From positions 8,266,501-8,330,500 of the forward strand of contig NZ_JARXYJ010000001.1 of the NCBI RefSeq assembly GCF_029894425.1: DNA of 64,000 nucleotides, given 5' to 3'. This stretch comes from Streptomyces sp. SAI-127. Lineage in GTDB: Bacteria > Actinomycetota > Actinomycetes > Streptomycetales > Streptomycetaceae. The notes below the pieces were generated by a model. The model was not told the origin of the DNA, did no database searches, and saw only the letters and a program-made list of their open reading frames with translations. Each line of letters begins with the position of its first letter. Positions within the stretch are counted from its first letter, which is position 1. Shown here piece after piece: positions 14,799 to 20,702 of the stretch. Position numbers and translations under genes: made by a program.

Positions 14799-16028
14799 AT
14801 GCATGCCTGGCCCGCTTCCGAGGTCCCCGCCCTGCCTGGTCAGGGCCGCGACCTGAGGATCCACGACACCGCGACCGGTGGCTTGGTCTCCCTCGACCCC
14901 GGTCCTGTCGCCCGTCTCTACGTCTGCGGCATCACGCCGTACGACGCCACCCACATAGGGCACGCGGCGACCTACAACGCGTTCGACCTCGTGCAGCGCG
15001 TGTGGCTCGACACCAAGCGCCAGGTTCACTACGTCCAGAACGTCACCGACATCGACGACCCGCTCCTCGAGCGCGCCGAGCGGGACAGCCTCGACTGGGC
15101 CGCCCTCGCCGAGAAGGAGACGGCCCTCTTCCGCGAGGACATGACCGCCCTGCGGATGCTGCCCCCGCAGCACTACATCGGCGCGGTCGAGGCGATACCC
15201 GGGATCGTGCCGCTCGTCGAGCGGCTGCGGGACGCCGGTGCCGCGTACGAGCTCGAAGGGGACGTCTACTTCTCCGTCGAGTCCGACCCGAACTTCGGCA
15301 AGGTCTCGAACCTCGACGCGGCCGCCATGCGGCTGCTGTCCGCCGAGCGCGGCGGCGACCCGGACCGTCCGGGCAAGAAGAACCCGCTGGACCCGATGCT
15401 GTGGATGGCCGCCCGGAAGGGCGAGCCCAGCTGGGACGGCGCCTCGCTCGGCCGGGGACGCCCCGGCTGGCACATCGAGTGCGTCGCGATCGCTCTCGAC
15501 CACCTGGGCATGACCTTCGACGTCCAGGGCGGCGGCTCCGATCTCGCCTTCCCGCACCACGAGATGGGCGCCTCCCACGCCCAGGTGCTGACCGGCGAGT
15601 TCCCCATGGCCAAGGCGTACGTCCATGCCGGCATGGTCGCCCTCGACGGCGAGAAGATGTCCAAGTCGAAGGGCAACCTCGTCTTCGTGTCGCGGCTGCG
15701 GCGCGAGGGCGTCGACCCCGCCGCCATCCGGCTGGCGCTGCTCGCCCACCACTACCGGGCCGACTGGGAGTGGACCGACCAGGTCCTCCAGGACGCCGTG
15801 GACCGGCTGGGCCGCTGGCGTGCCGCCGTCTCCCGGCCCGACGGGCCGTCCGCCGAGACGCTGGTCGAGGAGATCCGCGAGGCCCTCGCGAACGACCTGG
15901 ACGCCCCCACCGCGCTGGCCGCCGTCGACCGTTGGGCCGTCGCGCAGGAGGAGCGGGGCGGAGCCGACATGGGCGCGCCGGGCGTGGTGACACGTGCGGT
16001 GGACGCGCTGCTCGGCGTCGCGCTGTAA
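14799..16028 (+). CDS. mshC: Cysteine:1D-myo-inositol 2-amino-2-deoxy-glucopyranoside ligase
   Basis: A 409-residue paralogue of cysteinyl-tRNA synthetase that ATP-dependently joins cysteine to GlcN-Ins in mycothiol synthesis. It carries the class I HIGH-type motif THIGHAATY (about 50), the Zn/cysteine ligands including YVCGITPYD (Cys about 45), [10 protein letters not shown] and FPHHE, and the KMSKS motif EKMSKSKGN (about 285). It lacks the C-terminal anticodon-binding domain of CysS, consistent with MshC length. It is the last gene of the phosphatase-DUF3090-SCO1664 group but has its own -10 element. Confidence 0.95.
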
Positions 16029-16038
16029 GGCCGTACGC

Positions 16039-16077
16039 AAAGGGGCGCTTCCCTCCGCGGTGAGGAAGCGCCCCTTT
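16039..16077. terminator. Bidirectional terminator after mshC
   Basis: AAAGGGGCGCTTCC pairs with GGAAGCGCCCCTTT over an 11-nt loop. It lies between mshC and the convergent Gln-rich gene. Confidence 0.8.
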
Positions 16078-16093
16078 GTCTTTCAGCCGCCGG

Positions 16094-16663
16094 TCAGATC
16101 CGCTGGATCCGCACGCTGCGCAGGACGTTCGGGGACTGGGAGTCCCAGATGCCGATCACCTGGTGGCCGAACGCGAAGGCCTCCTGCATCTGCTGGTGGA
16201 TCTGCGGGCCCGGGTTGTTCAGGACCCGGAACTGGCCGTTGATCCGCAGGAAGACCTGCTGGGGCTGGCCCTGGAGCGGGTGCACGATGTCGATGAAGCC
16301 GTTCGCCACACCGGAGGCGAGGGCCTGCGCCTGCACCTGCTGGACGATCTGCTGGACCACCTGCTGCGCGAGCTGCGTCAGCTCCTGCTGCACCTGACGC
16401 TCCTGCTGCTGCGCCTGCTGGTCCTGCTGCTGTGCCTGCCCGAAGGGCTGCTGCTGTTGCTGCTGGCCGCCCAGCTGCTGCAACAGCTGCTGGAACGGCT
16501 GCTGCTGACCGAGCTGCTGGAGCTGCTCCATGGAGCCGGCGCCCATGCCGAAGCCCTGCTGGCCGCCCTGCTGTCCGAAGCCCTGCTGCTGGTAGGGCGA
16601 GGTCGTCGGGAACTGCTGACCCTGTTGCTGTCCGTGCTGGCCCATCTGCGGGGTGATGCTCAT
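16094..16663 (-). CDS. Glutamine-rich protein with C-terminal domain shared with the adjacent protease
   Basis: A 189-residue protein. One third of residues are Gln (63 of 189), concentrated in residues 6-115 with runs such as GQQQQQQPFGQAQQQ, and the segment 85-115 looks like a coiled coil. The C-terminal 55 residues (about 136-189) form a compact domain with NGQFRVLNNPGPQIHQQM and EAFAFG. That domain aligns with the C-terminus of the subtilisin encoded 50 bp upstream on the same strand (12 identities over 28 positions by eye). No signal peptide or membrane segment. GGAAGGTGA precedes the ATG. Function unknown; a partner or substrate of the protease is inferred. Confidence 0.82.
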   Translation of the reverse strand: MSITPQMGQHGQQQGQQFPTTSPYQQQGFGQQGGQQGFGMGAGSMEQLQQLGQQQPFQQLLQQLGGQQQQQQPFGQAQQQDQQAQQQERQVQQELTQLAQQVVQQIVQQVQAQALASGVANGFIDIVHPLQGQPQQVFLRINGQFRVLNNPGPQIHQQMQEAFAFGHQVIGIWDSQSPNVLRSVRIQRI

Positions 16664-16712
16664 GCGTGTGTCACCTTCCGTTTGATGTGACGGGACGTGC
16701 CGTGCCGGACCG

Positions 16713-18431
16713 TCAGCCGGTGATCACCAGGCCGACGATCTCGTCGTCCGAGAACCACACCCGGACGTCGGGCCGTCCGCTCGCGAAGGCGGTGTGCACC
16801 GCCTGCCGGATCTCGGGGGACGGGTGGTTGAGGTTGCGCCAGGCGCCGGCCACGAACAGCCTCAGACGCGGCGGGAGTTCACGGGGATAGGGCAGGAGCT
16901 CGTCCCAGTACCTCTCGGCCTGGCCCGAGCCGACCGCCTCCGGCAGCAGCCGGGTGACCGCCGCCTTGATGTCGGGACGGTTGCCGATCCGCTGTGAGGC
17001 GGGACGGCCCGGTGCGTCCTGCTGCGGGGAGCCCGTGGCGCGCAGCACCGCACGGGCGCGTTCCGGGGACATCGGCGGCTGGCCGGCCGCTTTGAGCATG
17101 CCCTGCAGCGCGGCCAGCGCGCCGACCACCACCGGGGAGGCGGAGGACGTCCCGGAGAACGTGTCCGTGTACCAGGCGATCTCCTCGGGCCCGCCCTGAA
17201 GGTCGCCGGGCTTGTCCCAGAAGCCGCCGGTGGTCGTGACCTCGCGTCCCCAGCCCTGCGCGTCCACGCGCGCGCCGTAGTTGGAGAACGCCAGGCGTGA
17301 GCGGTCCGGGCCGTGGTCGCGGCCGTGCGTGCCGGGCGGCGGGGCGCCCGCGCCGACCAGGACGGCACCGGAGGACTGGTTGGAGGGGTTGAACGGGTTG
17401 CGCCACCACTCGGGGAACTCGTCGGGGCGGCGCTCGTAGACGGCGTCGTCGAGGGACTCGCCGCCGTTGCCCGCGGCCGCCACGACGAGAACGCCTTTGC
17501 CGGTCGCGTACCGGATGGCCGCGTAGTCGTCCGGCCACCACTCGATCGCGATGTAGCCCTTCTGATCGTCACGGATCTCGTGGTCGAACCGCGGTCCCGG
17601 ACGGTGCAGTTCGACCAGGACGACGTCACCGGGGCCGAGCCGGTCGGCCGCCGCCTGGATCGCGGCGGCGGTGCCGATCCCCTGGAAGGACGCGGCCGCC
17701 GTCACCGCTTCCGGAACGATCCCGGTCACTCCGCGCTCGCCCTGATCACCGCCGATGACGCCGATCACGGCGGTGCCGTGGTTGCGCCAGGCCAGATCGG
17801 TCAGCGGGGTGCCGACGACCACGCCGGCGAGCTTGGCCGCCAGGTCCTCGTGGCCCAGCTGCCAGGCGCCCTCGACGTCGATCACGGTCACCCCCTGACC
17901 CGTTCCACCGGGGCGCTGCCAGGCCCAGTGGGCGTCGATCCCCTCGGGCGCGGGGCGCAGATAGCCCTGCCGGCCGGTGAAGTCGGGCGTGACGGGCGCG
18001 CCCTCCTTCAGCCGGCGGTCGTCGTCCACCGTCGCGGGCACGGCGGGCGGTTTGACGTACGCCGTGTCGATGCCCGGCAGCGCGGCGATCCGCGCCCGCA
18101 GTTCCTGCGCCCGGTCCTGTCCGCCGCGCACCCGGTAGAACCGCGCGAGATCGGACACGTCCTCGGCGCCCGGGACGGCCGACTGCTGGAGTCGCTCCTC
18201 GCTGCCGAACAGCGGCTCCAGGGCGAGCTGTTCGTCGCTGAGGAACATGTTGAGGGCCGACACGTCCGCGCCCGCCGCGGAGCGGACGCCCTCGGCCCCG
18301 GCACGCAGCCGGGCCTCGGGGCGGGCGACGACGATCAGTTCCTGTTCGGCTCCCCGGTAGGTGAATCCCGCTCCGTCGGGGCCCGGCCCGGAGGCTCCCG
18401 GGCCCTGTGGCGGCTGTACCTGCTCGGTCAT
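16713..18431 (-). CDS. Intracellular S8 (subtilisin-like) serine protease with novel C-terminal domain
   Basis: A 572-residue protease with an intact S8 triad: Asp185 in VTVIDVEG, His218 in RNHGTAV and Ser429 in FSGTSSASP, with oxyanion Asn322 in AAAGNGG. No signal peptide is present. The N-terminus (MTEQVQPPQGPGASG) is Pro/Gly-rich, and residues 25-175 form a non-standard helical pre-domain. This points to cytoplasmic action. Residues about 522-572 repeat the C-terminal domain of the downstream Gln-rich protein. The Asp motif VIDVEG departs from the usual DTG/DSG. The two genes lie 49 bp apart and are probably one operon. A role in regulated proteolysis or defence is speculative. Confidence 0.87.
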   Translation of the reverse strand: MTEQVQPPQGPGASGPGPDGAGFTYRGAEQELIVVARPEARLRAGAEGVRSAAGADVSALNMFLSDEQLALEPLFGSEERLQQSAVPGAEDVSDLARFYRVRGGQDRAQELRARIAALPGIDTAYVKPPAVPATVDDDRRLKEGAPVTPDFTGRQGYLRPAPEGIDAHWAWQRPGGTGQGVTVIDVEGAWQLGHEDLAAKLAGVVVGTPLTDLAWRNHGTAVIGVIGGDQGERGVTGIVPEAVTAAASFQGIGTAAAIQAAADRLGPGDVVLVELHRPGPRFDHEIRDDQKGYIAIEWWPDDYAAIRYATGKGVLVVAAAGNGGESLDDAVYERRPDEFPEWWRNPFNPSNQSSGAVLVGAGAPPPGTHGRDHGPDRSRLAFSNYGARVDAQGWGREVTTTGGFWDKPGDLQGGPEEIAWYTDTFSGTSSASPVVVGALAALQGMLKAAGQPPMSPERARAVLRATGSPQQDAPGRPASQRIGNRPDIKAAVTRLLPEAVGSGQAERYWDELLPYPRELPPRLRLFVAGAWRNLNHPSPEIRQAVHTAFASGRPDVRVWFSDDEIVGLVITG

Positions 18432-18705: not shown

Positions 18706-19635
18706 GTGGCACCCGCAGACCGTTCCTTCGCACGTCGCACACTCCTGACCACGACCGCCGCGCTGACCGGAGCAGCCGTGCTCGGCGGCACCGCGCACGC
18801 GGCCGAGACCCGGCAGGCCGCGTGGCCCGCGCAGTTCCCCCTCCCCGACGGCTTCCAGCCCGAGGGCATCACCATCGGCTCCGAGCCGTATGCCTACTTC
18901 GGCTCCCTCGCGAACGGAGACATCTACCGGGCCAGCCTCGCCACCGGCCGCGGCAGGATCGTCGCCAAGGGCGCCGGACGTCCGACGGTCGGCCTGAAGA
19001 TCGACCGGCACGGCAGACTCTTCCTCGCCGGCGGCGACAGCGGCGAGATACGGACCGTCGACGCCCGCTCCGGCGAGACCGAACAGGTGTACGCCACCGG
19101 CGGCACCTTCGTGAACGACGTGATCCTCACCCCGGGCGCCGCCTGGTTCACCGACTCCTTCAAGCCGGTGCTCTACAAGCTGGCCAAGGGAGCGGTGGCG
19201 ACCGTACCGCTGACCGGGGAATGGCAGCAGGGCCCCGACTTCACGGCCAACGGCATCGAGCGCACCCCCGACGGCCGCGCCCTGCTCGTGGTGAACGCCT
19301 TCGCGAACGGCGGCGGCCTCATGCGGGTCGACCCGCGCACCGGCGCCGCCCGCGCCGTCGACCTGGGCGCAGCGAAACTGCCCAACGGCGACGGCCTGCT
19401 CCTGCTCGGCCGGATCCTCTACGCCGTCCAGCAGCAGCAGAACGCGATCGACGTGTTCCGGCTGAACGACGCCGGCACCCGGGGCACCGCGATCACCCGG
19501 ATCACCGACCCGCGCTTCCGCATCCCGACGACGGTGGCGGCCTGGGGCAGTCGCCTGTATCTGCCCAACGCGCGCTTCGACGTGGAGCCGACGCCCACCA
19601 CCGAGTACGACGCGGTGGCGGTGCGGCAGGTCTGA
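18706..19635 (+). CDS. Tat-exported SMP-30/gluconolactonase-like beta-propeller protein
   Basis: A 309-residue protein. The N-terminal signal contains twin Arg (SFARRTLLTTTAA), a hydrophobic core and AHA|AE cleavage near residue 33, so export by Tat is expected. The mature part has six repeating strands with segments such as GLKIDRHGRLFLAGGD, NGIERTPDGRALLVVN and ITDPRFRIPTTVAAWGSRLYLPNARF. These are typical of SMP-30/NHL-type propellers that bind Ca2+ and sometimes hydrolyse lactones. Enzymatic activity is not evident. GTG start with GAAGGA upstream. It is divergent from the S8 protease gene. Confidence 0.82.
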   Translation: MAPADRSFARRTLLTTTAALTGAAVLGGTAHAAETRQAAWPAQFPLPDGFQPEGITIGSEPYAYFGSLANGDIYRASLATGRGRIVAKGAGRPTVGLKIDRHGRLFLAGGDSGEIRTVDARSGETEQVYATGGTFVNDVILTPGAAWFTDSFKPVLYKLAKGAVATVPLTGEWQQGPDFTANGIERTPDGRALLVVNAFANGGGLMRVDPRTGAARAVDLGAAKLPNGDGLLLLGRILYAVQQQQNAIDVFRLNDAGTRGTAITRITDPRFRIPTTVAAWGSRLYLPNARFDVEPTPTTEYDAVAVRQV

Positions 19636-19691: not shown

Positions 19692-20702
19692 TCAGTCCTC
19701 CGACGACGAGTCCTCGTCGTCCGTCTCCGGTTCCGTCTCGGCCTCTGCCTCCGGCTTCGGCGGCTTGGGAGGCTTCGCTCGACCGCTGGGGCTGTCCCGC
19801 AGATAGGCCGCGCTGTCACTGCCGTCCGCGGTCGCGTGACCGCCCGGCTGCCCCGGCTGGCCGCCGTCCCGGCGCCGTAGATACCGCTCGAACTCCCGGG
19901 CGATCGCCTCGCCCGAGGCCTCCGGCAGCTCCGCGGTGTCCCGGGCCTCCTCCAGCGTCTGGACGTACTCCGCGACCTCGGTGTCCTCGGCGGCCAGCTG
20001 GTCCACGCCCACCTGCCAGGCGCGCGCGTCCTCGGCCAGCTCGCCCAGCGGGATCCGTACGTCGATCAGGTCCTCCAGACGGTTCAGGAGGGCCAGCGTC
20101 GCCTTCGGGTTCGGCGGCTGCGACACGTAGTGCGGTACGGCCGCCCACAAGGACACCGCGGGCACGCCCGCGTGGGTGCAGGCCTCCTGGAGGATGCCGA
20201 CGATGCCCGTCGGGCCCTCGTACTTGGTCTCCTCCAGGTCCATCCGCTGGGCCAGGTCCGCGTCGGACGTGGTCCCGCTGATCGGAACCGGACGGGTGTG
20301 CGGGGTGTCGCCGAGCAGCGCGCCCAGGATCACCACCAGCTCCACGCCCAGTTCGTGGGCGAAGCCCAGCAGCTCGTTGCAGAACGAGCGCCATCGCATC
20401 GACGGTTCGATGCCTCGGACGAGTACCAGATCGCGCGGCTTGTCGCCGCCGACGCGGACCACCGACAACCTTGTCGTCGGCCACGTGATCTTGCGCACTC
20501 CGCCGTCCAGCCACACGGTGGGGCGGTTCACCTGGAAGTCGTAGTAGTCCTCGGCGTCGAGCGCCGCGAACACCTCGCCCTTCCACTCCTTGTCCAGATG
20601 TGCGACCGCGGTGGAGGCGGCGTCGCCGGCGTCGTTCCAGCCCTCGAACGCGGCCACCATGACCGGGTCGATCAGCTCGGGAACCCCCTCGAGCTCGATC
20701 AC
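19692..20702 (-). CDS. parJ: PAC2-family protein, ParJ orthologue
   Basis: A 336-residue PAC2 (proteasome-assembly-chaperone-2-like) protein. The PAC2 fold covers about 1-250, with MVAAFEGWNDAGDAAS, LVLVRGIEPSMRWRSFCNELL and GILQEACTHAGVPAVSLWAAVPHYV. The C-terminal 60 residues are disordered and acidic (PKPEAEAETEPETDDEDSSSED). In S. coelicolor the orthologue beside mshC was described as ParJ, a regulator of ParA polymerisation in sporulation septation (recalled literature). The proteasome genes lie about 30 kb away in the same window, and any link to 20S assembly is untested here. Confidence 0.88.
   Translation of the reverse strand: MIELEGVPELIDPVMVAAFEGWNDAGDAASTAVAHLDKEWKGEVFAALDAEDYYDFQVNRPTVWLDGGVRKITWPTTRLSVVRVGGDKPRDLVLVRGIEPSMRWRSFCNELLGFAHELGVELVVILGALLGDTPHTRPVPISGTTSDADLAQRMDLEETKYEGPTGIVGILQEACTHAGVPAVSLWAAVPHYVSQPPNPKATLALLNRLEDLIDVRIPLGELAEDARAWQVGVDQLAAEDTEVAEYVQTLEEARDTAELPEASGEAIAREFERYLRRRDGGQPGQPGGHATADGSDSAAYLRDSPSGRAKPPKPPKPEAEAETEPETDDEDSSSED

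Follow-up and report, generated by a model that had tools for sequence, protein, structure and literature searches.

In the 64,000-nucleotide stretch of Streptomyces sp. SAI-127 DNA analyzed here (the window), a gene for a subtilisin-like S8 protease is followed by a gene for a glutamine-rich protein, and both products end in the same domain. The locus raises the question whether these two genes form a real unit, what a domain common to an enzyme and a low-complexity neighbor may serve, and whether the two copies evolve together. We find that the pair is genuine and that the terminal domain of the Gln-rich partner is an exchanged, diversified module. This module had escaped the first-pass annotation of the DNA, and exchange at the scale of a domain is a stronger result than the docking or co-assembly of the two proteins put forward there, which is possible. 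The gene coordinates given by that annotation, and its description of the partner as one-third glutamine, agree with Table 1.

Table 1. Features of the protease-partner locus by position in the window
Feature	Position	Strand	Evidence and remarks
Presumed mshC (mycothiol ligase)	14799..16028	+	tRNA-synt_1e 1.5e-81; flank, outside the unit
Strong hairpin in the interval where the partner gene and mshC converge	16039..16078		RNA fold of 16030-16098 (-): -36 kcal/mol, z -3.6
Gln-rich partner gene, 189 aa	16094..16663	-	63/189 Gln (33%); adjoins the protease gene in 78/80 loci (best 80 of 123)
Shared C-terminal domain, partner copy, residues 114-189	16097..16324	-	Fast-evolving, exchanged between lineages
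Recurrent segment LQQLGQQQPFQQLLQQLGG, residues 48-66, within the Gln-rich region of the partner	16466..16522	-	Seen by eye
Spacer from protease gene to partner gene, 49 nt	16664..16712		Both genes on the same strand
S8 (subtilisin-like) protease gene, 572 aa	16713..18431	-	Open reading frame and translation
Shared C-terminal domain, protease copy, residues ~500-572	16716..16934	-	Nearly invariant
Catalytic domain of the protease, residues ~150-497	16941..17984	-	D185 = 17877-17879, H218 = 17778-17780, S429 = 17145-17147, plus N322
N-terminal propeptide-like domain of the protease, residues ~31-127	18051..18341	-	Predicted domain; pro-Tk-subtilisin alignment
SMP-30/gluconolactonase-like gene, divergent from the unit	18706-19635		Pfam score below cut-off; twin-arginine-like N-terminus (by eye)
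Putative parJ, PAC2-family gene	19692..20702	-	PF09754 1.2e-64; flank, outside the unit

A gene pair at one chromosomal site

The short same-strand spacer makes co-transcription of the protease and partner genes likely. Downstream, the hairpin is likely a terminator shared by the partner gene and the gene that we take to be mshC; it is absent from the output of a simple terminator scan. On the other side of the unit, the PAC2-family gene would correspond to parJ, to which the first-pass annotation had assigned no gene of the window, as a passage of one study describes ParJ (SCO1662) as structurally related to PAC2 proteins (PMC4255298).

A scan of genome contigs yielded 123 relatives; the analysis of loci covers the best 80 of them. 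Among these best 80 of 123, the Gln-rich gene lies beside the protease gene in 78, and the protease stands alone in two (L058 and L072). At the same 80 loci, parJ was found in all and mshC in 78 (at the two others the contig stops short of it), and the SMP-30-like gene is present in 39. The pair had been suspected to be inserted between mshC and parJ, and 17 Streptomyces genomes without the domain support this: 14 have no other window gene between mshC and parJ, two have the SMP-30 gene there, and one could not be judged. In L154 and L163, the SMP-30-like gene occupies the interval from mshC to parJ and the pair is absent. Where mshC was found, its distance from the partner gene is greater by about 3 kb in 14 of the 78 loci. 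At the four of these examined, the extra space is taken up by a secreted-looking protein of about 1000 aa (L052:8596-12081, L061:8393-11428, L064:8520-11603 and L078:8329-11373), and Pfam identifies the two such proteins scanned as GH31 glycosidases that include an NPCBM domain.

A profile of the shared domain matched 66 of 392 Streptomyces genomes, two of them weakly, which leaves 64 strong matches. Two adjacent copies, 535-863 nt apart, are present in 59 of these 64; the expectation that the pair would be found together rather than apart is thus borne out by loci and genomes alike. Among the remaining five, G256 (whose contig carries L072) and G346 encode the protease at the same site without the partner. 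G404 retains just the last 73 protease residues between parJ and mshC (L127:4377-4595), an eroded unit. In G262 and G487, the protease is divergent, shows no Gln-rich neighbor and lies at another chromosomal position, next to MreB/Mbl and TerB genes (identified with Pfam for the G262 copy; the G487 neighbors were read by likeness to G262). In the class search (246 genomes), the pair was found in five Streptomyces, and one other genome gave a chance-level match; in the family search (249 genomes), 14 Streptomyces carry two copies, and two further genomes gave weak matches. These counts exclude the weak matches G337, G539 and G672, and rest on 23 (class), 14 (Streptomyces) and 22 (family) candidates scored per genome, a part only, with which divergent copies could be missed. 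The class-search match outside Streptomyces (G037, E 0.00175) was rejected as chance, as it is a TIR-type protein by eye and the protease query found nothing in that genome.

S8 proteases of divergent sequence that carry the shared C-terminal domain were seen directly beside MreB/Mbl and TerB genes at L122:1881-5632 and L124:5791-9394 (Pfam for L122), with a gene read as a type III polyketide synthase nearby. By eye, no Gln-rich partner was seen beside either of them, and the L124 protease appears to carry a frameshift near its end. G528 holds the usual pair and, at another chromosomal site, a second, divergent protease-Gln-rich pair (L123:4441-6758). The partner of this second pair had five relatives at E 0.001 in the protein collection and no Pfam match at 0.01.

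The dependence within the pair is one-sided. No partner without a protease was seen in the loci and genomes examined, and three genomes encode a protease with intact catalytic residues and no partner (L058; L072, on the same contig as L125; and L126). A toxin-antitoxin pair was therefore rejected, the enzyme being tolerated alone, and the inhibitor role that had been considered for the Gln-rich protein is unlikely in an obligatory form. That the partner depends on the protease and not the reverse speaks for an accessory subunit over an antitoxin. The same three genomes oppose an essential inhibitor in another reading, which sees in the Gln-rich protein a substrate or decoy inhibitor dedicated to the protease that diversifies since presentation to, or cleavage by, a conserved enzyme is all it requires. 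Gene adjacency, the shared domain and the finding of partners only with proteases in the loci and genomes examined agree with such a role, which we nevertheless consider unlikely.

Two proteins with one terminal domain

The C-termini of the protease and the partner have 23 of 76 residues in common (BLASTP E 1e-9, single comparison). Compared profile against profile (31 partner versus 15 protease sequences), they match with 98.0% probability and an E-value of 2e-13 over 68 columns. The first-pass annotation had proposed a shared domain of roughly 50 residues and had made its case depend on a significant match of this kind; the sharing stands, and the length is actually about 73-76 residues. A domain search in the window's own genome, with all 105 candidates scored, returned these two copies and one chance-level match at E 1.6. 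Both are predicted to adopt the same small β-β-β-α-β-β barrel, with a possible likeness to the OB-fold, a five-stranded barrel with a helix between strands 3 and 4; in the model of the partner domain, 64 of 89 modelled residues have a pLDDT of at least 90. Partner copies resemble one another more, as do protease copies, and adjacent copies are not each other's closest relatives. The partner's domain may have arisen through duplication of that of the protease. Mean column entropy is 0.36 in the protease domain versus 1.27 in the partner domain, where a core is conserved (GxA, PL.G, R, P, AF, V, D) and many other positions vary.

For the partner as a whole, neither Pfam nor NCBIfam gave a match above cut-offs, nor did the PADLOC models at 0.01, and a protein search with it found 309 homologues. 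Its N-terminus mostly reads MSTTPQM or MSITPQM (exceptions L073, L076 and L077). A segment like LGQQQPFQQLLQQLG recurs across the partners examined, and a variant of the segment LQQLGQQQPFQQLLQQLGG was seen by eye in the divergent second pair as well. The sequence before the domain is otherwise Gln-rich and variable in length, with a median of 43% Gln outside the last 85 residues (78 sequences, including a few open frames extended upstream).

The protease carries the D185/H218/S429 triad that had been read as intact, together with N322; these are the catalytic residues of S8 peptidases (MEROPS), the oxyanion Asn included. Across 89 aligned sequences (the window's own among them), H218, N322 and S429 are identical in all and D185 in 87. 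That the protein has no signal peptide was likewise read from its N-terminus, MTEQVQPPQGPGASGPG, and judged by this sequence alone the enzyme apparently stays in the cytoplasm. Its predicted fold matches pro-Tk-subtilisin, propeptide included, over model residues 31-497, and we predict a subtilase of the zymogen type; parts of the modelled catalytic domain have a pLDDT <50. The protease thus resembles intracellular and pro-subtilisins (Tk-subtilisin, B. clausii ISP) in its S8 catalytic fold, triad and N-terminal propeptide-like domain, and differs from them by the additional C-terminal domain and the linked Gln-rich partner. The best NCBIfam match is the model of type VII secretion mycosins, TIGR03921, at 42.9 bits, far below its cut-off of 278.75; an assignment as mycosin (MycP) was rejected, and by eye no ESX genes were noticed among the neighboring reading frames. 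Distant S8 homologues (L145-L149) have C-termini of other kinds, and no Gln-rich neighbor was seen by eye among the reading frames listed for these five loci (long ones shortened). The homologue at L145:5609-7746, which comes from another family, has about 56% identity and no C-terminal domain of this kind; the gene after it encodes a 195-aa protein that has no Pfam match.

Exchange of the partner domain

Divergence differs greatly between the protease copy and the partner copy. Over 76 loci (L021 and L030, where the contig ends before mshC, and two loci without a partner were left out), the mean aa distance is 0.743 in the partner domain, 0.155 in the protease domain, 0.18 in the catalytic part, 0.095 in mshC and 0.063 in parJ. 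This constancy of the protease domain while that of the partner varies would also suit a substrate or decoy. By C-terminal motif, 78 partner sequences fall into four types (VR 29, NK 19, IQ 17, IT 13), labelled from their last 14-15 residues. At least one label is wrong, that of L066, with a domain 94% identical to that of an IQ-type neighbor, and the label of L076 is doubtful. On the protease tree (78 rows), the types require 18 changes (41.0 for shuffled labels, minimum 3). With 76 loci each, 18 changes are required on the mshC tree and five on the domain's own tree. Mislabelling probably explains why the domain's own tree requires five changes rather than three, and the 18 changes on the other trees would then be somewhat too high.

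Tree comparisons point in the same direction. The 228-nt partner domain fits the protease tree 1647 log units and the mshC tree 1551 log units worse than its own tree, and the 228-nt domain of the protease itself fits the protease tree 62 log units worse. The mshC sequence loses 265 log units on the protease tree, a significant rejection, and as the protease and mshC trees reject each other, background recombination exists at the locus. Scaled by ten tip-shuffled trees, the signal lost under the protease tree amounts to 36% for the partner domain, 4% for the protease domain and 5% for mshC. Quick searches gave the trees, and 5000 resamplings went into the AU tests, too few according to the program.

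Eight close pairs of loci with different type labels were aligned. In L011/L014, L010/L015 and L018/L020, identity is 94-97% in the protease body, 97-99% in the protease C-domain, 93% downstream and 77-79% in the partner domain, where dS is 0.27-0.38 versus 0.03-0.18 around it. The partner domains of L030/L032 are 80% identical, with 95-96% in the protease and a poorly aligned downstream stretch. In L005/L008, L025/L026 and L056/L065, partner domain identity is 73%, 63% and 55%, respectively, versus 90-95% in the protease domain; L056/L065 differ downstream too, and mshC lies at a different distance there. The eighth pair, L034/L066, has 94% identical partner domains and proved to be mislabelled. 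The reverse pattern also occurs: L065/L009 are 92% identical in the partner domain, 82% in the protease and 90% in mshC. Six pairs were chosen in which the partner domain is closer than the protease (from the top of the list that gave L065/L009, or by this pattern). Their partner domains are 89-97% identical, the stretch just before 84-89%, the protease body 82-90%, the first 150 nt of the partner gene 72-82% and the 250 nt downstream 73-84%; further downstream, in mshC, they are again as alike as in the partner domain (89-94%). Such local tracts indicate that the partner domain is exchanged as a small module. That exchange centers on the folded domain would be unexpected if the disordered region of the partner were a protease substrate.

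Synonymous divergence alone shows no general excess of exchange, as the spread of dS ratios (sd) in the partner domain (0.44) is close to that in the protease domain (0.43) and lower than in a 228-nt mshC window (0.52). Neither six switch pairs nor correlation tests revealed a link of partner type to the residues of the protease. Upon a type switch, 1, 0, 1, 1, 1 and 5 residues of the protease C-domain changed in the six pairs, compared with 1-4 in six same-type controls, and co-adaptation of the protease is not visible. Given mshC and parJ, the partial Mantel correlation of the partner domain is 0.06 with the protease domain (60 of 500 permutations as high) and 0.115 with the catalytic domain (5 of 500); the two shared domains show no clear correlation beyond that of neighboring genes. 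Within types, dN/dS is 0.51 in the partner domain (424 pairs) versus 0.16 in the protease domain, and it reaches 0.85 in the partner domain overall (2998 of 3003 pairs); neither 0.51 nor 0.85 shows positive selection on the partner domain.

A further reading, with which the higher within-type dN/dS of the partner domain compared with the protease domain agrees, makes the partner a structural or developmental protein of low complexity under weak constraint; relaxed constraint would account for its divergence and ordinary repeat-aided homologous recombination for its exchange. The absence of the partner in L058, L072 and L126 would fit, as would the repetitive Gln-rich sequence adjoining the exchanged domain at a locus with background recombination. 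This background is comparatively small, however, to judge by the 5% of signal that mshC loses on the protease tree. Moreover, the partner reading frame is open at 78 of 80 loci (best 80 of 123), and relaxed drift alone does not give deeply different types that recur in close relatives. We therefore hold weak constraint to be a doubtful explanation.

Likeness to known systems and a possible role

A one-sided pattern of exchange is common where proteins must recognize something that changes. A constant protease domain, together with a partner domain that keeps its core and varies elsewhere, fits an outer face that recognizes a thing differing between lineages. The reading that we favor, tentatively and with less than even confidence, is a single two-gene unit of a cytoplasmic zymogen-type subtilase and a Gln-rich accessory protein, the latter acting as a lineage-variable recognition or adaptor subunit. 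The conserved core of the partner domain would keep its association with the protease or with itself, and the variable positions may let it recognize a ligand or target in a lineage-specific way. The Gln-rich region could cluster or scaffold the complex and could also supply repetitive DNA for domain exchange by recombination. Clustering or ligand binding would gather the zymogens and start cleavage of the propeptide, after which the protease might act on cell proteins under the partner's control, with growth control or defense as the output.

Literature searches, at the level of the titles and abstract openings listed, gave no description of the protease and Gln-rich pair. Its architecture has a parallel in the effector-associated domains (EADs). 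According to passages of Kaur et al. (2020, PMC7159879; 2021, PMC8195603), EADs are small, non-enzymatic, terminal and often duplicated in adjacent genes, one copy being fused to a peptidase or other effector; coupling by homotypic contacts is proposed, and they are preponderant in multicellular bacteria. In the pair studied here, a small non-catalytic terminal domain likewise stands in both adjacent products, one of them a peptidase. Of the ten EADs that were the first to be described, seven consist of helices alone (passages of PMC7159879 and PMC8195603), whereas an OB-type small β-barrel is predicted here. Two further differences are that in the window's genome no core component (vWA-MoxR, STAND, GTPase or similar) was seen to carry the domain and that the adjacent copies are not each other's closest relatives. 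By analogy, the pair resembles EAD systems in architecture, and neither fold nor core component establishes its membership.

The EAD pattern of an adaptor-like domain common to adjacent genes, as set out in passages of the same two papers (PMC7159879, PMC8195603), also bears on a more specific alternative: a bacterial conflict or allorecognition unit in which the partner is the polymorphic recognition subunit and the protease the executioner. Types shared across species, the exchange of one small variable domain and a patchy presence (64 of 392 Streptomyces) are in keeping with it. Against this stand the lack of a core NTPase with the domain in the window's genome and the single conserved chromosomal site between housekeeping genes. 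The defense library gave no match beyond a generic subtilase: none of its named models covers the unit, and the generic subtilase model alone matched, at 2.7e-4. We judge a conflict unit to be very unlikely. In its fullest form, the unit would be a polymorphic recognition system with divergent barrel types swapped across species by recombination, where the subtilase executes upon meeting a mismatched or foreign partner; this counterpart of fungal incompatibility in logic, not in ancestry, seems to us a long shot.

Returning to the accessory-subunit reading, protease-adaptor pairs with a common small terminal domain have been proposed as a recurring design in bacterial stress, death and defense. 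In the present pair, the protease half hardly varies, and species exchange a single domain of the partner half. Should this domain be a recognition surface, the locus would be a compact two-gene system with a specificity part that can be exchanged in the laboratory, and it would offer a well-defined setting for the question whether balanced recognition alleles are maintained in filamentous bacteria.

The Podospora het-Q1/het-Q2 system is a precedent, not a relative, as regards allorecognition by a subtilisin-like protease. As reported there (PMC12881547), the protease acts on its partner in self/non-self recognition, and gasdermin and protease are idiomorphs at one locus; in Streptomyces, by contrast, both genes occur together and the partner has no Pfam match above cut-off.
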